A DNA stretch of 64,000 nt from an uncultured Bacteroidales bacterium. GTDB lineage: Bacteria; Bacteroidota; Bacteroidia; Bacteroidales; UBA932. Made by a program: the position numbers and the translations under genes. Below, piece by piece: positions 11,568 to 30,680 of this stretch. The first letter of the stretch is position 1. Each line of letters starts with the position of its first letter. Below the pieces are notes generated by a model. It was not told the DNA's origin and searched no databases. It worked only from the letters and a program-made list of their open reading frames with translations. The stretch is taken from positions 1 through 64,000 of the forward strand of contig CANRID010000007.1 of assembly GCA_947630665.1 (NCBI GenBank). Direction: 5' to 3'.

Positions 11568-11625
11568 TTTAAAAAAGAATTATCCGGATTCCAGTGCCAA
11601 AGATACTAATTTATTTACCGGATAT

Positions 11626-20470: not shown

Positions 20471-21682
20471 ATGGCATCAATCAAATTAAAATTCAGAGCG
20501 CATACGGATAACAAGAAAGAGGGTGCGTTGTATTTTCAAGTCATACACGAGAGAGTGGTCAAGCAGGTTAAGACCGATTATCGCATATTTGAATACGAGT
20601 GGGATAAGCGACGCGGAGACATTGTCAAAGAGTTTCCACTATCGGCGGCACGAAACGAGACATTGAGGATTGTCCGCGACAAGATTTTGTGGGAGCAAAG
20701 GAAGTTGGAGCAGATTGCCAAATCTTTTGAGAATATCGGCCAGCCATACACAGCCGATGAGATAATCCACCGCTACAAAGAATCTGCATCGGACAAAACA
20801 ACCGTCTTTGAGTACATGCGTCATCAGTCGGAACGGATGAAGAAGCTCGGCAGAACAAGAACGGGCGAAACCTATCAGCAAACATTGCACAGTTTTATGC
20901 GGTTCCGCAATGGCGTTGATTTATATTTCGATATGTTCTATGCCGATATGGCCGAGCAGTACGAGAGTTATATGCGGGCGAATTGTCTGAGCCGCAATAC
21001 GACCTCTTTTTATATGCGGATTCTTCGGTGTATTTATAACCGGGCTGTCGAGGATGGTCTTGCCCAGCAAAACAATCCGTTCAAAAGAGTCTATACAGGC
21101 GTAGATAAAACAGCCAAACGGGCCATATCGATTAAAGAGATCAAGCGGATCAAGGAATTAGACCTTGCGGATAAACCGGATCTGGATTTCGTCCGCGATC
21201 TGTTTATGCTCTCATTCTATCTTCGTGGAATGTCGTTTATCGATCTGGCTTATTTGCGTAAAAAAGACCTTGCCAATGGCTATATTACCTATATCCGCAA
21301 AAAGACCGGGCAGCAGCTTACGATTCGCTGGGAGCGGTCGATGCAGGAGATTATCGACAAATACCCCGAAAATCCGACACCATATCTGTTGCCGGTCATC
21401 ACGAGGCAAGACGGTACGGAACGCAAACAATACCTCAATAAGATACTGTTTGTCAATCGTAAACTGAAACAGATTGCACAATTGGCGAAGATTGCCACGC
21501 CGCTGACGATGTATGTCAGCCGCCATAGCTGGGCAAGCATCGCCAAGTCGAAAAATATTCCGCTAAGCGTCATCAGCGAGGGCATGGGACACGACAACGA
21601 AGAAACCACACGCATCTATCTCGCCTCACTTGACACAAGTGCGGTAGATAAGGCTAATTGTCTTATCTTAAAAGATTTGTAA
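20471..21682 (+). CDS. tyrosine site-specific recombinase / phage-integrase family with SAM-like domain
   Basis: 'FMLSFYLRGMSFIDLAYLRKKDL', 'YVSRHSWASIAKSKN', 'ISEGMGHDNEETTRIYLASLD' (R..H-x-x..Y catalytic pattern). Confidence 0.93.
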   Translation: MASIKLKFRAHTDNKKEGALYFQVIHERVVKQVKTDYRIFEYEWDKRRGDIVKEFPLSAARNETLRIVRDKILWEQRKLEQIAKSFENIGQPYTADEIIHRYKESASDKTTVFEYMRHQSERMKKLGRTRTGETYQQTLHSFMRFRNGVDLYFDMFYADMAEQYESYMRANCLSRNTTSFYMRILRCIYNRAVEDGLAQQNNPFKRVYTGVDKTAKRAISIKEIKRIKELDLADKPDLDFVRDLFMLSFYLRGMSFIDLAYLRKKDLANGYITYIRKKTGQQLTIRWERSMQEIIDKYPENPTPYLLPVITRQDGTERKQYLNKILFVNRKLKQIAQLAKIATPLTMYVSRHSWASIAKSKNIPLSVISEGMGHDNEETTRIYLASLDTSAVDKANCLILKDL

Positions 21683-21723: not shown

Positions 21724-21912
21724 CTCTTGTTAAGAGTTATAGTTGATATTGCAAAGATACGCATAATATTGTAAAATCTGAGTTTTTGCCTTTTTTATAA
21801 TAGGACATGAAAGACATTTTATCAGAATTTGTTTGGCAATTCAATCTACATTGATTTCACAATTAATTGATTTACAATGCAAATATCCCTATAATATATC
21901 TCTTAACAAGAG
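21724..21912. repeat. putative invertible promoter segment bounded by 13-bp perfect inverted repeats
   Basis: CTCTTGTTAAGAG (21724-21736) and its exact reverse complement CTCTTAACAAGAG (21900-21912); TATCTTTG -7 box on the minus strand at 21753-21760; tyrosine recombinase gene ends 41 bp upstream. Confidence 0.75.
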
Positions 21913-22929
21913 ATGTTTGTAGAAATTGATATATTAGAAGATAACATATTCCTGCTTTCGCCTGAATTACTGAATATCTTGCTTAAAGACCATACCACGA
22001 GCAAGGAGGATATTCAGCACAATATCTTTTGGGCAACTTCCGATTATGAATATTTGGGCAATGGTTATCAATATGATTCGCCTATTCTTCCTTGTCTGAT
22101 TACCGGAGATAACGGACATGTCATCATGCCCCGTGTTCTTAAAAGCCGTGATACACAAACTGCGCGTTCACGGGACATGGCAGAGGTGTTTACCCCGTCA
22201 TGGATATGCAATGCACAGAACAATCTGATTGATGAAGCGTGGTTTGGGAGAAAGGATGTGTTCAATACGGAATACACGGACGAACAAGGATACCATCGGT
22301 GGCAGCCCAATGCGGAGAAGATTCAATTTCCGAAAGGCAAGACTTGGAAGGATTATGTTCGTGACACCCGGTTAGAGATATCCTGCGGAGAAGCCCCTTA
22401 CATAGTAAGCCGGTATGATACCACAAACGGAGAGGCTATCCCAATAGAAGGACGTATCGGACTCCTCGATCGCAAGTTGCGGGTAGTAGGTGAAAATACG
22501 GAAACCTCCGGTGAATGGTTGGAATGGACACAGGAAGCATATAAGAGTACTTACGCTTACGAATGGCAAGGCGACAATTTACTGATTGCCCGAGAATCAA
22601 TGCTCATCTCCTTTATCGAATACTATCAACAGAAATTCGGCAAGCAGCCCTTGTTGAAATCCATCAATTATATCGCCTACATCATTTCGTGGAATGTATG
22701 GCAGATGGACGGGCTGAAAGGTGTCGTTCCGAATAGTTGCGGTGAACGCAGGGAAATTGTTGCCGACCTGTTCGGAACAAGGGAAGAAGTCAGTCAATGC
22801 GAAGGTTGTCTGAAAGATGACATACGCAGGCACAACGGTATCTATTGCCAAATCAAGGACTGGCGGGCAAAAGACCCTAAAACGGGAAAAACGGGAAAAC
22901 GAATCCGATTTATCGACCTCATAAAATAG
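21913..22929 (+). CDS. restriction endonuclease subunit M-like protein (N6-adenine MTase-like SAM-binding motifs)
   Basis: 'DMAEVFTPSWICNAQNNLIDEAWFG' (motif X-like) and 'RLEISCGEAPYIVSRYD' (motif I-like); 6 nt from the next ORF. Confidence 0.7.
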   Translation: MFVEIDILEDNIFLLSPELLNILLKDHTTSKEDIQHNIFWATSDYEYLGNGYQYDSPILPCLITGDNGHVIMPRVLKSRDTQTARSRDMAEVFTPSWICNAQNNLIDEAWFGRKDVFNTEYTDEQGYHRWQPNAEKIQFPKGKTWKDYVRDTRLEISCGEAPYIVSRYDTTNGEAIPIEGRIGLLDRKLRVVGENTETSGEWLEWTQEAYKSTYAYEWQGDNLLIARESMLISFIEYYQQKFGKQPLLKSINYIAYIISWNVWQMDGLKGVVPNSCGERREIVADLFGTREEVSQCEGCLKDDIRRHNGIYCQIKDWRAKDPKTGKTGKRIRFIDLIK

Positions 22930-22935
22930 TGCAGC

Positions 22936-25900
22936 ATGAAATTCACATCTTCACTAAAATTGAAACTGATCTATGTGTTCCGCATCAACGATGCCGCACA
23001 CAGAGGGTGTCTGAAGGTGGGTGAAGCCACTTGTAACGATGACAGCGTTTTGGGGCTTGCTCCGAACAGCAAAGCTCTCAACGACTCTGCGAAGAAGCGC
23101 ATTAACCAATATACGCAGACGGCCGGCATCGCCTACGACCTCTTATATACGGAGCTTACCCTATACAACAGCAAAAAAGGCTTGTGTTCTTTCAACGATA
23201 AGGAAGTGCATCATGTGCTGGAGCGTTCCGGTATTAAGAAAAAGATATTCGATACCGAGAACAAAGCCAACAAATGGTTCATCACGGACCTTGAAACGGT
23301 CAAACGGGCCATAACAGCAGTTAAGGAGGGACGGGAATCGCTCTCTTCCGCAGAAGTATCACATGACCGAACTCCGATTGTGTTCCGTCCTGAACAACGG
23401 GAAGCCATCGAAAAGACCAAGAAGCAATTCAAGAAAGGCAATCAGATGTTGTGGAATGCCAAGATGCGTTTCGGCAAAACGTTGTCGGCCTTGCAAGTGG
23501 TAAAAGATATGGATTTCGGCCGGACTTTGATTCTTACCCATCGCCCTGTGGTGGATAGCGGTTGGTTCGAGGATTTCGGCAAGATATTCTATGATAGTCC
23601 CGGTTTTGCATATGGTTCAAAGAACAATGGTGATAACCATGTTTCATTAGAAACGAGAGCGAAACAGGGCAGATGCAAATATGTGTATTTCGCTTCCATG
23701 CAGGACTTGCGCGGTTCCGAACTCGTAGGCGGCAACTTTGACAAGAACGATGATGTGTTTGCTACCGCATGGGATTGCATCATCGTGGACGAAGCACACG
23801 AGGGGACACAGACGGAACTGGGCAAGGCGGTCATACAGGAACTGACAAAAGCCGATACCAAGATATTGCGCCTTTCCGGCACTCCGTTCAATCTGTTGGA
23901 TGATTTCAAAGAGGATGAAATATATACTTGGGACTATGTAATGGAACAACGGGCCAAGGCTTCGTGGGATTTGATACATTTCGGTGATCCGAATCCATAC
24001 GCTTCCCTGCCCACGATGAACATCTACACCTACGATCTCGGGCGGTTGCTCCATGAGTTCGTGGATGAGGATGTGGCTTTCAACTTCCGCGAGTTTTTCC
24101 GTGTCAATGAGGCCGGGAACTTTATCCACGAAAAAGACGTAAAGGCATTCTTGAATCTTATCACCAAAGAAGACAAGGAGAGCTGCTATCCCTTTGCCAA
24201 CGAGGAATACCGCAATATCTTCCGACATACCCTATGGATGCTGCCGGGCGTGAAAGAGGCTCGCGCCATGAGTGTCATGCTGCAATCACACCCTGTATTC
24301 CAACATTTCAAGGTAGTAAATGTAGCGGGAAACGGTGACGAGGACGAAGAGAGCAAAGATGCGCTTGTCGCGGTGGAAGAAGCCATCGGTAAAGACCCTG
24401 ATGCCACACGCACCATCACCCTGTCTTGCGGACGATTGACCACCGGCGTCAGTGTCAAGGCATGGACAGGCGTATTTATGCTGTCCGGCTCATACAATAC
24501 CGCCGCCTCAAGTTATATGCAGACCATCTTCCGTGTGCAGACACCTGCTACTATCAATGGAAGGGTTAAGGAGCAGTGTTATGTGTTTGATTTCGCACCG
24601 GACAGGACACTGAAAGTCATTGCCGAGACGGCGAAGATTTCAGCCAAGGCAGGAAAGACCAGCGGCAACGACCGCAAGATTATGGGCGAGTTCCTGAACT
24701 TCTGCCCGATTATTTCCATCGAAGGCTCCAAGATGAACCAGTTCGATGTACCCAGAATGTTGGAGCAACTCAAACGTGTTTATGTGGAAAGGGTTGTCCG
24801 CAACGGTTTTGAGGACAGGAGCCTATATAATGATGAGTTGATGAAACTCGATGATTTGGAGTTGCAGGAGTTTGACGACCTGAAAAAGATTATCGGTCAG
24901 ACCAAAGTCATGCCCAAGACCAATCAGGTGGACATCAACAATCAGGGATTGACCGATGAACAATATGAGGAACTGGAAGACCTCGAAAAGAAATCCAAGA
25001 AGAAAGGCAAAGACAAACAGCCGTTGACGGAAGAGGAGAAGAAACGGCTCGAAGAGCTGAAAAAGAAAAAGAACAACCGTGAAGCCGCCATTTCCATTCT
25101 TCGGGGTATCTCCATCCGTATGCCCTTGCTGATTTATGGCGCAGAGTTACAAGATGAATCTCAAGAAATAACGATTGACAACTTCGCCTCGCTTATCGAC
25201 CCGCAATCGTGGGAAGAGTTTATGCCGAAAGGAGTTACCAAACAGAAGTTCAACAGCATCAAGAAATACTACGACCCGGAGATATTCTGTGCGGCAGGCA
25301 AACGCATTCGCGCCATAGCCCGAGCTGCGGACAAGCTGAATGTGGAAGAGCGCATCGAACGCATCACGGATATTTTCAGCACATTCCGCAATCCCGACAA
25401 GGAAACGGTGCTTACGCCTTGGCGTGTGGTGAATATGCACCTTGGGGATTGTCTGGGCGGTTATAACTTCTTCGAAAAAGGTTATGAAACCACATTGTCC
25501 GAACCTCGTTTCATTGACCGAGGCGAAGTGACGGCCAATGTATTCGCCCCGGATTCCCGAATCCTTGAAATCAACTCGAAGTCCGGCTTATATCCACTTT
25601 ACATGGCATACAGCATTTACCGCGCAAGGGTAAAGGATTCTTTATTTTCAGTGTCAAGCATAGAGGATGAACAGAGAATCTGGGACAAAGTGGTGGAGGA
25701 AAACATCTTTGTCATCTGCAAGACGCCTATGGCAAAAGCCATTACCCGCCGTACACTTCTTGGCTTCCGCAAAGGAAAAACCAATATGTGGGCGCCGGAA
25801 GATTTAATCAACAAAATTAAAAACCAGCCCGAACTCTTTATCAGCCGCGTTACGAAGGCTTCAAAGTGGGGCATCTTGAACATAGACATGATGAAATTCA

Positions 25901-26937
25901 ACGCTATTGTAGGTAATCCTCCTTATCAGGAAGTAGATGGTGGTGGAATTGGTGATAGTGCTAAACCTATTTATCACTTCTTTGTTGGCATTGCGAAAAG
26001 AATTAATCCGAACTACATGAGTATGATTATGCCATCTCGTTGGTTAAAAGGTGGCAAAGGATTATTCAAATTTAGAGAAGAAATGCTTTCAGACCCATGT
26101 CTTTCTGTTCTTTATGATTATGCGGATGCTGGTGTATGTTTTGGGAATATTCATATTGATGGCGGAATTTGTTACTTCCGTTGGGATAGAAATAAAAAGC
26201 ATGTGGCTCAACAAGTATCTTATTCATACCAAGATCTTTCAGGTTACAGGAGTACATCAATACGTGTTCTTGCGGATGAAGATTTAAATGCCGTCATTAG
26301 GGATGTCCGTCAGCAATCTATTGTAGAAAAAGCATTGCGTCAGAATCAACCTACTTTTGACACTATTGTGTCTCCAAGAAATCCTTTTGGCTTTTATGCA
26401 GATTTGTTTAACCGCCCTGAAAATTATTCATATCTCCATATTTCTGATTATGAAAATGACGGATATGTTCCAATTTATGGTGTTATAGGTATAAAGGGCG
26501 GTGCTAAGCGTATCACGAAATTTATATTAAAAGAAGAAATACTCAAATCCACTTCGAGTATTGACGCATATAAAATATTCTTTTCCAAGGCTTATATGAC
26601 AACATCTACTGTCCCACCAGAATTTATATGTGGACAGCCAGGAGATGTGTGTACGGAAACTTTTCTTAAAATTGGAGATTTCACATCTTCTATAGAAATG
26701 GAATGTTGTGCCAAGTACATAAAAACGAAATTCTTTAGAGCATTACTGTTCTTTAATCGTAGTTCTCTTAACATTTCTCAGTCCACTTTCTCACTTATTC
26801 CTTTGCAGAATTTTGTGGATGATAGTGACATTGACTGGAGCAAAAGCGTATCAGAAATAGATACACAACTCTACGCCAAATACAATCTGACAGAAGAAGA
26901 AATCGCCTTCATCGAATCAATGATTAAACCGATGTAA
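22936..26937 (+). CDS. 1333-aa restriction-modification fusion: N-terminal GIY-YIG-like domain, SF2 helicase, Eco57I-type methyltransferase
   Basis: 'LIYVFRINDAAHRGCLKVGEAT...RINQYT...DKEVHHVL'; Walker A-like 'WNAKMRFGKTLSAL' and DEAH 'IIVDEAHEGTQ'; 'FNAIVGNPPYQEVDGG' motif IV. Confidence 0.78.
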   Translation: MKFTSSLKLKLIYVFRINDAAHRGCLKVGEATCNDDSVLGLAPNSKALNDSAKKRINQYTQTAGIAYDLLYTELTLYNSKKGLCSFNDKEVHHVLERSGIKKKIFDTENKANKWFITDLETVKRAITAVKEGRESLSSAEVSHDRTPIVFRPEQREAIEKTKKQFKKGNQMLWNAKMRFGKTLSALQVVKDMDFGRTLILTHRPVVDSGWFEDFGKIFYDSPGFAYGSKNNGDNHVSLETRAKQGRCKYVYFASMQDLRGSELVGGNFDKNDDVFATAWDCIIVDEAHEGTQTELGKAVIQELTKADTKILRLSGTPFNLLDDFKEDEIYTWDYVMEQRAKASWDLIHFGDPNPYASLPTMNIYTYDLGRLLHEFVDEDVAFNFREFFRVNEAGNFIHEKDVKAFLNLITKEDKESCYPFANEEYRNIFRHTLWMLPGVKEARAMSVMLQSHPVFQHFKVVNVAGNGDEDEESKDALVAVEEAIGKDPDATRTITLSCGRLTTGVSVKAWTGVFMLSGSYNTAASSYMQTIFRVQTPATINGRVKEQCYVFDFAPDRTLKVIAETAKISAKAGKTSGNDRKIMGEFLNFCPIISIEGSKMNQFDVPRMLEQLKRVYVERVVRNGFEDRSLYNDELMKLDDLELQEFDDLKKIIGQTKVMPKTNQVDINNQGLTDEQYEELEDLEKKSKKKGKDKQPLTEEEKKRLEELKKKKNNREAAISILRGISIRMPLLIYGAELQDESQEITIDNFASLIDPQSWEEFMPKGVTKQKFNSIKKYYDPEIFCAAGKRIRAIARAADKLNVEERIERITDIFSTFRNPDKETVLTPWRVVNMHLGDCLGGYNFFEKGYETTLSEPRFIDRGEVTANVFAPDSRILEINSKSGLYPLYMAYSIYRARVKDSLFSVSSIEDEQRIWDKVVEENIFVICKTPMAKAITRRTLLGFRKGKTNMWAPEDLINKIKNQPELFISRVTKASKWGILNIDMMKFNAIVGNPPYQEVDGGGIGDSAKPIYHFFVGIAKRINPNYMSMIMPSRWLKGGKGLFKFREEMLSDPCLSVLYDYADAGVCFGNIHIDGGICYFRWDRNKKHVAQQVSYSYQDLSGYRSTSIRVLADEDLNAVIRDVRQQSIVEKALRQNQPTFDTIVSPRNPFGFYADLFNRPENYSYLHISDYENDGYVPIYGVIGIKGGAKRITKFILKEEILKSTSSIDAYKIFFSKAYMTTSTVPPEFICGQPGDVCTETFLKIGDFTSSIEMECCAKYIKTKFFRALLFFNRSSLNISQSTFSLIPLQNFVDDSDIDWSKSVSEIDTQLYAKYNLTEEEIAFIESMIKPM

Positions 26938-27162: not shown

Positions 27163-28731
27163 TTATAGTTGTTCTATGATTTTCTGCATTGCCTCACTGC
27201 CCTTTGATAATAGATTCTTTGCAGCCTCTTTTGTATTCAATTTTTCAATACTTAATCCCACATAGGCTAAAGCTTGTTTCTCATTGTCTTTCGTGATTTC
27301 CGCCCCATTATGATGAGCAAGTGAGAGTATTGAACGTAATGTCCTTTCGTTTTTTAAGAAAGTATCGAATTCCGTATCATCAATTTTAAGATGTTCAAAT
27401 AATCTATGTAAGTATGCAATCGATGCCCCCCTCTTTTCTTCTTCTGTAGGATTAAGGATGTTTTTATAGAGTTTAGCCTTATTTAGACTATCATAAAACA
27501 TCAATCCAATTTGTTGAAGTAACGGACTGAGTGCAAAATAATCATTATCCTGCAAAAGATTAATTTTGTCGGGAATTTCATTCTGAGCATGATTCAAAGG
27601 CTTGATAAGCGGGAATCCATATTCTTCTTCCCACTTACGTAATAATGTTTTATACGTATCCCTAAAAACGAAGTCAATTGATTCGGCAGAAGAATTCCAA
27701 TTGCCTTGGAACATTGTTTCTTGAAAATGCCGGCTAAAACCACGTCCGTCAGGAGCGATGTTGTAACCCTTCCAAGTATTTTGTTCTCTATACGGGAGAT
27801 CCAATACATCTTTTAGAAAGGCAACAATATAACTCTCATTATCGTTGTCGCAACGAATAGAGAAATCAGGAGTGGTGATTCTAAGTGATTCAACACAATA
27901 TTTTTCGCGTCCCATATAACGAGAAAGTAATTTCTTTTCAAAGAAAATCGGAGTATATGGGAATGTGTTTTCATCAGACAATATGTCTAACCCATTCTCG
28001 TCTGTTGCAATAATATATCGAGCGTTCATCGATTTCATATACTCTTTAAGTGGTGTGTGCTTAAAGACAGCCTTTCCATTGAACCAATTACGCATATTGG
28101 TAAAACACGGATTTACCATAATATTGTAATGCTGTAATGCTGTCCTACTTATATCTTTGCCTCGTTCAGGAGTACATTTATATTCAAATGTTGGAGAATA
28201 ATCATTCAAATTGTATTCAATTTCTGATTGACAGTGGCAGATTAAATCCATTCCCTTCGCTGCCATAAATTCAGTAAGGTATCTATTAAGTATTTTTGCA
28301 GAAGTATCTGTGATTTCACATACAAGAGTACCTTTATCATCAAAAAACAGCCTTGTGCTTTCCTTATGCACCTCATATAGATTATGGTAGAAAACAATTT
28401 CTTCTGCTACTCTAATCTGCACGAATCGGTCAACTCCATTTTTGAAATCACGGATTATCGTCAATGGCTCAAAGCCATCGTGTACAAAAGGTTTATATGT
28501 ACATCCATTAATTAAAGCACCTCGCACATTGTCAGGTATATCCACGGTATATGATGATAATGCATCGGTTATTTTAGATGGAGTCGCCAAGTAACACCAG
28601 TACTTATAGTAAACATCAATTACTCCGTCCTTGTAATGCTGCTTCTTATATAACCACACCCAATCATTTGCTAAAAAATGATTGGAGAGAAGTTCTATAT
28701 GTTGTTTATGTTCAAATTCTTCTCGAGTCAT
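27163..28731 (-). CDS. unrecognised 522-aa protein in defence operon
   Basis: Long ORF co-directional with and 6 nt downstream of the RloB-like gene; no family recognised. Confidence 0.8.
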   Translation of the reverse strand: MTREEFEHKQHIELLSNHFLANDWVWLYKKQHYKDGVIDVYYKYWCYLATPSKITDALSSYTVDIPDNVRGALINGCTYKPFVHDGFEPLTIIRDFKNGVDRFVQIRVAEEIVFYHNLYEVHKESTRLFFDDKGTLVCEITDTSAKILNRYLTEFMAAKGMDLICHCQSEIEYNLNDYSPTFEYKCTPERGKDISRTALQHYNIMVNPCFTNMRNWFNGKAVFKHTPLKEYMKSMNARYIIATDENGLDILSDENTFPYTPIFFEKKLLSRYMGREKYCVESLRITTPDFSIRCDNDNESYIVAFLKDVLDLPYREQNTWKGYNIAPDGRGFSRHFQETMFQGNWNSSAESIDFVFRDTYKTLLRKWEEEYGFPLIKPLNHAQNEIPDKINLLQDNDYFALSPLLQQIGLMFYDSLNKAKLYKNILNPTEEEKRGASIAYLHRLFEHLKIDDTEFDTFLKNERTLRSILSLAHHNGAEITKDNEKQALAYVGLSIEKLNTKEAAKNLLSKGSEAMQKIIEQL

Positions 28732-28737
28732 ATGAAA

Positions 28738-29340
28738 CTATAATTCATTAAGTAATTCAATGATTTTGTGTATCTCAGAGTATGCCCTCAAATCCTCCGG
28801 TGATTCCTTACAGAGCTGGCACAATTTTTCGGAATTTGACATTGCCCGTTCCAAATCTCCATTCTCAGTCAAGAACTTGTAGAGGTTGATACGTATGAAA
28901 TATCGCTTTGTCTTTTCATATCCCGGCATATATTTCTGCAATTCAGGAAGCAGTTGTTCGTAGCTGTCATATCGCCGACAGACCACATTCGGCAGGAAGT
29001 GGAGCAAAAACCAAAATTCAGTGCATGGATTCGTTTCTACAAACATCACTCTTTCGGCATACTTCTTTGCACTGTACTTTCTCTTTGCCCGCTGATAAAG
29101 CTGCATTTCAGAAGGGAACTGTAACAGTCTGTCCATGTCAAACAGGCATACGATATAATCATATTGCTTGTTCAGGTAGGATTCCGCCAATTTCAGAATA
29201 TGATTGATGTCGCTGTGCTGTGGAAAATCCGGAGCGACCTTGAAAGGATAGCGACACGCGATTCTCAAAGAGTCGAAATAGAACCATTCCGTTTCTCCTT
29301 CGCCTATGATGGCGATACTTTTTGTTACTGTTCCCGGCAT
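28738..29340 (-). CDS. RloB-like protein (AbiLii-type, TOPRIM-related)
   Basis: 'IIGEGETEWFYFDSL', 'DYIVCLFDMDR', 'NPCTEFWFLLHF'. Confidence 0.83.
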   Translation of the reverse strand: MPGTVTKSIAIIGEGETEWFYFDSLRIACRYPFKVAPDFPQHSDINHILKLAESYLNKQYDYIVCLFDMDRLLQFPSEMQLYQRAKRKYSAKKYAERVMFVETNPCTEFWFLLHFLPNVVCRRYDSYEQLLPELQKYMPGYEKTKRYFIRINLYKFLTENGDLERAMSNSEKLCQLCKESPEDLRAYSEIHKIIELLNEL

Positions 29341-29344
29341 ATCA

Positions 29345-30643
29345 TCAGTCGTTTAGGTTGATATACTGACTGCCCAAGAACGGCAACTTTACCAATTTCC
29401 CCTGCTTGTAGGCGTTATACGGGGAAAGATTCTTATGCAGTCCCAAAGAAGAAAGGCGCACTATTTTTGTTTCGCCAAATTCGTTCTTATCAGTGAACCA
29501 TATCGTATCACGGCGAATGAAATCCTCGTTGAGCAGATTGATGTCGTGCGTGGTCAGGAGCATCTGGGATGTCCCGTTGCTGTTTGCCAAAAATACTTTT
29601 ATGAAATAAGCCAGCAATTCATAGTGAATGCTTGTTTCCACTTCATCGATAGGCACGAACCGATTGGTCTTTAACAAGAAATTCAGTATCACTGCCATTC
29701 CCAAGAACCTCATGGTGCCATTGGACTCGTATTCTTCCGACAAATCATATACTTTATCACCTGCTTTATGCTTGAAGGTCAGTTCCGTATTTGTGATTTT
29801 TCCTTTTCTAAGCATTTCTGCCTTTGCTTCACTACCAATAGGGGCATTCTGAATCAGTTGTTCCAGTTCCGGAGTAATCAGTTCTTCCTCTTCGTGCAAT
29901 ACCACATCTTCTATATTGAAATCGGACGCTTTCAGGAAGTTCAAGATGAATTTCTTCAAATCCCCTGTTTCGTCTTTATCCAATCGTGATTTGACATATC
30001 CCGAAAGCAGCATACCGGGAGCCAATAGCTCTTTTACCTGTTTGACAAAATAATCGTACACATCATTCAGCTTGGTACGTTCTACGTTGCTTTTGCCAAA
30101 TGCGGCAAGCACACTGCAATTATTGATAGTGTTGCCTGAAATCACATCCTGGCTCTTCTTCGTCATTTTCAGATTTACACCAAAATCGATGGTAGTAGAA
30201 TCTGTTGCGGCATCATAACTGCGGTTATAAAGTTTTGTAGGACGAATGGAATCATAAACAATCAATGTCTCGGAATAAATATGCTTGGCATCCAACTCAA
30301 AACTGAGTATGTACTTCGACTGATTGATATAGAATACCATCGACATCTTTGTCTTTTCATTCCTTGAAGTGTCATCTAACATGAAAGGGACAACCCCGGT
30401 TTTCTCATTCCTGTCTTTTGGCATTCTCAAAACCAACATCCTGAAAAATTCGATGGCATTTAATATGTTTGTTTTGCCGGACGCATTGGCACCATAGATT
30501 ATTCCCACTTTCAGTAATCTTACTCCTTCCTTGACTTCATACGAATATTCATCAGACATAAAAGTGTCCGTCGTCGGTTCAAAACTGATTTTCTGATTCG
30601 ATTTAATGGAGAAATAATTCTCAATGCTGAACTCTGCTATCAT
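29345..30643 (-). CDS. AAA family ATPase, RloA/AbiLi-type (AAA_15/AAA_21)
   Basis: Walker A 'GIIYGANASGKTNILNAIEFF'; Walker B 'RFVPIDEVETSIHYELLAYF'; 'LLTTHDINLL' H-loop. Confidence 0.88.
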   Translation of the reverse strand: MIAEFSIENYFSIKSNQKISFEPTTDTFMSDEYSYEVKEGVRLLKVGIIYGANASGKTNILNAIEFFRMLVLRMPKDRNEKTGVVPFMLDDTSRNEKTKMSMVFYINQSKYILSFELDAKHIYSETLIVYDSIRPTKLYNRSYDAATDSTTIDFGVNLKMTKKSQDVISGNTINNCSVLAAFGKSNVERTKLNDVYDYFVKQVKELLAPGMLLSGYVKSRLDKDETGDLKKFILNFLKASDFNIEDVVLHEEEELITPELEQLIQNAPIGSEAKAEMLRKGKITNTELTFKHKAGDKVYDLSEEYESNGTMRFLGMAVILNFLLKTNRFVPIDEVETSIHYELLAYFIKVFLANSNGTSQMLLTTHDINLLNEDFIRRDTIWFTDKNEFGETKIVRLSSLGLHKNLSPYNAYKQGKLVKLPFLGSQYINLND

Positions 30644-30672
30644 AATCGTTGAATTTGTCTGTTACACGGCTC

Positions 30673-30680
30673 AAAGATAC
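30673..30680 (-). promoter_or_regulatory. -7 box (TATCTTTG) for the AAA/RloB operon
   Basis: Plus strand CAAAGATA 30 bp upstream of the ATG; same octamer as in the invertible segment. Confidence 0.55.

Follow-up and report, generated by a model that had tools for sequence, protein, structure and literature searches.

Layout of the locus

The window analysed here, 64,000 nucleotides of contig CANRID010000007.1 from an uncultured, gut-type Bacteroidales bacterium, carries a tyrosine recombinase gene followed by a short intergenic segment between inverted repeats and a two-gene operon of restriction-modification (R-M) type, with the following features:

20471–21682, plus strand: tyrosine recombinase, putative invertase, 403 aa (Pfam and motifs)
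21724–21736, plus strand: putative left recombination site, CTCTTGTTAAGAG, with an imperfect extension to 21741
21737–21899, no strand assigned: predicted invertible segment, 163 bp, in the OFF orientation as assembled (homologous segments occur in both orientations)
21752–21759, minus strand: TATCTTTG, a Bacteroidota-type −7 box directed away from the operon
21900–21912, minus strand: putative right recombination site, reading CTCTTAACAAGAG on the plus strand and abutting the ORF1 ATG
21913–22929, plus strand: ORF1, 338-aa R-M subunit of a methyltransferase-like family (PADLOC MTase_II PDLC03390, E = 1.8e-122)
22936–26937, plus strand: ORF2, 1333 aa, helicase and Eco57I-type methyltransferase with a possible N-terminal GIY-YIG/T5orf172 nuclease (Pfam, PADLOC)

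As described in the initial annotation, the 13-bp inverted repeats are perfect and lie 163 bp apart (17 of 18 positions match when they are lengthened inward), the left one beginning 41 bp after the recombinase stop codon and the right one ending on the base directly before the ATG at 21913. These two sites are the sole copies of the exact 13-mer in the genome assembly, and within the window the pattern CTCTTNNNAAGAG is confined to them, against an expectation of 0.07. One 13-nt inverted pair with a span of 100–400 bp was observed in the whole window versus 0.33 expected, and such a pair arose in 0.13% of trials with shuffled copies of the intergenic region. These three figures served to test a chance origin of the repeats. 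By themselves the repeats are moderately improbable, and the evidence from the window is suggestive; on our reading of the sequences, it is the comparison with other loci, and not repeat statistics, that settles whether the observation is real.

The recombinase is XerC/XerD-like, with the Pfam domains Arm-DNA-bind_5, Phage_int_SAM_5 and Phage_integrase and with the RHSWA and GH...Y motifs. Its adjacency suggests that it acts on the two sites, a role that either of two relatives in the same genome (C49, 50% identical, and C28, 39% identical) could fill instead; no promoter inverton was found beside C49 or C28.

Between the repeats, TATCTTTG is the sole perfect TAnnTTTG box. It was correctly placed on the minus strand, facing away from the operon, in the initial annotation, but its coordinates are 21752–21759 and not 21753–21760; in silico inversion likewise brings it near the ATG as predicted, at 21877–21884 (plus strand) and 28 nt from the ORF1 start instead of at ~21876–21883 and ~30 bp. 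The octamer does recur upstream of the neighbouring AAA gene, at 30672–30679 (minus strand) and again 28 nt ahead of the ATG, and also at 11598–11605 (minus strand). Because the window contains seven copies versus 2.8 expected by chance, the octamer by itself is weak evidence. Moreover, no canonical TTTG −33 box was found in the segment at the expected spacing, the best candidate having two mismatches and an 18-nt spacer, which makes the promoter the weakest element of the explanation. The segment is assembled in its OFF state, judging from where the −7 box lies and which way it points.

A Pfam search with ORF1 gave no match, and its structure model was poor (pLDDT 47), too low for a fold search. 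ORF2 contains the Pfam domains ResIII and Eco57I (Eco57I-type methyltransferase, E = 3e-28) and matches REase_MTase_IIG (PDLC03626) in PADLOC. Conserved residues at its N-terminus show a GIY-YIG/T5orf172-like spacing, which is our own reading of the motif; T5orf172 falls under the Pfam cut-off in ORF2 and is clear in a homologue (L197). Together, the motif spacing and the Pfam match of the homologue hint at a possible nuclease domain in ORF2. A fold search of the PDB with the confident model of the ORF2 N-terminus gave no significant match, and PDB sequence searches returned nothing for ORF2 and no meaningful match for ORF1. The operon showed no HsdS. Elsewhere in the same genome, G000:C6:37823-38767 encodes a second ORF1 relative (64%), at which a comparable upstream inverted-repeat pair was not found. 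The convergent operon at 27163–30643 (minus strand) of the window matches AbiL-type components in PADLOC and is AbiLi/AbiLii-like (AAA and RloB); its third gene (522 aa) matched no family above the cut-off.

Segment orientation in homologous loci

A search of the genome collection returned 80 ORF1 homologues, and co-occurrence of repeats and recombinase was counted over the 72 loci for which 1.5 kb or more of upstream sequence was available. An inverted-repeat pair was present at 21 of the 22 loci with an adjacent relative of the recombinase versus 2 of the 50 without one (Fisher p = 7e-15, for loci that are not independent, several being near-identical). At the recombinase-bearing loci the repeats differ in sequence, measure ~160–196 bp from outer edge to outer edge and lie just before the operon; the exception (L031) has the recombinase and a repeat pair interrupted by extra sequence.

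Where the initial annotation had counted a fixed orientation in close relatives as evidence against a switch and proposed checking homologous loci for both, the opposite of fixation was seen: in four comparisons the segment occurs in both orientations between conserved flanks, with breakpoints exactly at the repeats. L009 (Bacteroides nordii) and L016 share flanks of 100% identity, and their segments align at 100% identity as the reverse complement and at 61% as read; L012 and L011, L025 and L026, and L041 and L036 show the same two-orientation pattern. The −7 box points toward the operon in L009, L012, L025 and L041 and away from it in the others, among them L037 (Phocaeicola faecicola, like B. 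nordii a cultured carrier). Its place in nearly every orthologous inverton is close to one and the same end of the segment, even where repeats and recombinases have diverged, and by box position the window groups with loci whose box faces away. The window segment has weak similarity to that of L008 or L016 over its whole length, with the OFF orientation slightly closer. Of 21 loci from the genome collection, 4 were ON and 17 OFF (binomial p = 0.007, with relatedness ignored). Each assembly presents one orientation, and reversibility within a strain would be the expected counterpart of these differences between strains.

Other features were met at individual homologues. The genome of Leyella lascolaii khD1 carries the cassette twice (L025 and L028), once ON and once OFF, and the repeats of the two differ slightly. 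Upstream of position 3501 in L033, a 27-bp inverted repeat pair spanning 157 bp precedes an ORF1 homologue, and neither a recombinase relative within 3.5 kb nor a TAnnTTTG box was found there. One close homologue at a contig end (L135/L174, G305:C3:197137-197664) lacks the invertible segment and has a single CTCTTATCAAGAG site abutting the ATG, which could reflect either an aberrant excision event or an artefact of assembly. At L036:4514-4948 the beginning of the ORF2 homologue, translated from the aligned start, runs into an in-frame stop; either the gene is broken or the coordinates are at fault. L111 (IMG/VR contig IMGVR_UViG_2871890851_000002), a contig with a viral classification, carries recombinase, inverton and R-M cassette in the OFF state. 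In an empty-site comparison for a mobile island, the genes flanking the window's cassette lacked synteny in same-genus genomes.

We consider it highly probable (about 0.92), on the sequences compared, that segment 21737–21899 is a phase-variable invertible promoter of the R-M operon, inverted by the recombinase encoded upstream. This reading is favoured because inversion would give the 28-nt spacing between box and ATG that is found at the AAA gene, because the recombinase family adjoins invertons in front of other genes too, because homologues occur in both orientations with repeats that track the adjacent recombinase, and because the −7 box keeps to the same segment end despite divergence of repeats and recombinases. 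The proposal of a phase-variable promoter captured OFF is thereby upheld by the homologues, by the co-occurrence of repeats and recombinase and by the direction of the box. The recombinase would act on two quasi-palindromic CTCTT-NNN-AAGAG sites and invert the DNA between them. In the OFF state, as assembled, the −7 box would face the 3′ end of the recombinase gene, with the R-M operon left without a recognisable promoter; in the inverted, ON state, the box would stand 28 nt ahead of the ORF1 ATG and drive ORF1–ORF2. Transcription of the operon would then depend on orientation, and a population would consist of cells that have this restriction and methylation activity mixed with cells that lack it. 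The window contains the repeats, the recombinase, the box and the operon, and the segment is inverted between homologous loci of other species; from these, inversion may be expected in this strain as well.

That a former switch is now locked OFF in this strain is unlikely. Most sampled copies are OFF (17 of the 21 above) and the cost of self-restriction could favour such a lock, but the recombinase ORF is intact and retains its motifs, the two sites match at all 13 bp, and ORF1 and ORF2 are likewise intact. Very improbable is a reading of the recombinase as a mobile element's integrase, with the repeats as its attachment sites: despite the integrase-type domains and the movement of the cassette between species (the flanks of L009 and L016 are identical), the repeats stand in inverted orientation at a distance of 163 bp and are not direct repeats at the ends of an element, the exact 13-mer has no further copy in the assembly, and the segment between the repeats flips in relatives. 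The idea that the repeats, being short, quasi-palindromic and placed around a promoter region, are operators for a repressor or other DNA-binding protein on a fixed segment is scarcely tenable and already contradicted for the homologues, whose repeats track the recombinase and whose segments are found either way round, with breakpoints falling at the repeats; the initial view of the repeats as recombinase crossover sites is supported instead.

Recombinase family and possible exchange of cargo

When relatives of the recombinase were surveyed across the bacterial order, similar-sized invertons were found directly downstream of many. Their cargo includes capsule-type regulators, surface-protein genes and at least two other R-M operons, namely a methyltransferase, methyltransferase, T5orf172-helicase operon (L176, L197 and L198) and an operon of PLD-helicase and Eco57I type (L177). 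On this survey, the recombinase family is a general switch, placed before varied cargo.

The recombinases found beside R-M operons of the window's type do not form one clade, and that of the window falls among recombinases that adjoin other cargo (support 0.97). Moreover, recombinases 94–97% identical to one another are found in front of three different R-M operons. One genome has two copies of the switch (L177 and L178, G331:C1:601764 and 911112) before different R-M operons, with 89–99% identity over 1.9 kb that drops to background at the right repeat. These alignments suggest a modular switch that changes its cargo at the right site or close to it, and homologous recombination inside the shared switch is another explanation of the pattern in this genome. 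We put forward only tentatively, as a possibility we rate below even odds, that invertase and invertible promoter form a portable cassette that has been placed repeatedly before different Bacteroidales R-M systems, with cargo swapped at the right site. The OFF promoter, pointing antisense into the invertase gene, might stabilise the OFF state.

Other switch-like sites were noted in the genome of the window. A second inverton-like pair with CTCTTACCAAGAG arms spans 175 bp at G000:C33:3164-3339, where TAACTTTG faces the gene for a 911-aa surface-type lipoprotein. Two contig ends (G000:C33:28603 and G000:C20:39382) repeat this site together with the beginning of this gene (loci L122, L123 and L124), which suggests a multi-locus surface-protein switch. 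Sites of CTCTTTGTAAGAG lie near contig ends at G000:C2:64, G000:C4:1530 and G000:C32:9, and may be more repeated switch sites at which the assembly broke.

Known invertible systems and implications

The switch is almost certainly real, but of a known class. Bacteroidales invertible promoters with an adjacent invertase have been described for antibiotic-resistance loci (IP-ARG; PMC8748976), and the present system fits that class, with a cargo that is IIG-like by sequence. Shared with IP-ARG are the invertase immediately upstream, the inverted repeats around a short intergenic segment, the TAnnTTTG −7 box and the predominance of OFF, an excess of which was reported for the resistance-gene invertons at a level similar to that in our set (PMC8748976); unlike IP-ARG, the cargo here is an IIG-like R-M operon and a canonical −33 box was not found. 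Inversion-driven phase variation of R-M systems has been established chiefly for hsdS shuffling (PMC5903667, PMC11892184). In those Type I systems, as predicted here, R-M activity changes when a recombinase inverts DNA, but the segment described here is intergenic and promoter-bearing; since no coding sequence or hsdS is rearranged, the whole operon should go ON or OFF with its specificity unchanged. Like Type IIG-like R-M enzymes, ORF2 combines helicase and Eco57I-type methyltransferase in one chain, whereas a second R-M-like subunit, ORF1, is encoded first and the nuclease domain of ORF2 is putative. Invertible promoters controlling methyltransferases have been suggested before (PMC10333322); in the part of the literature that we searched, no description of this exact cassette was found, and an earlier report is possible.

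The operon probably has its own nuclease, and its switching would raise the puzzle of how a cell with an unmethylated genome survives an OFF-to-ON flip. The switch may confer a benefit in defence or as a phasevarion. In Bacteroides fragilis group genomes, more methyltransferases are encoded than methylated motifs are detected (PMC10333322), a surplus that switching of such operons could help explain. If the operon is indeed under ON/OFF control, a clonal population would be mixed in its phage sensitivity, DNA uptake and methylomes.
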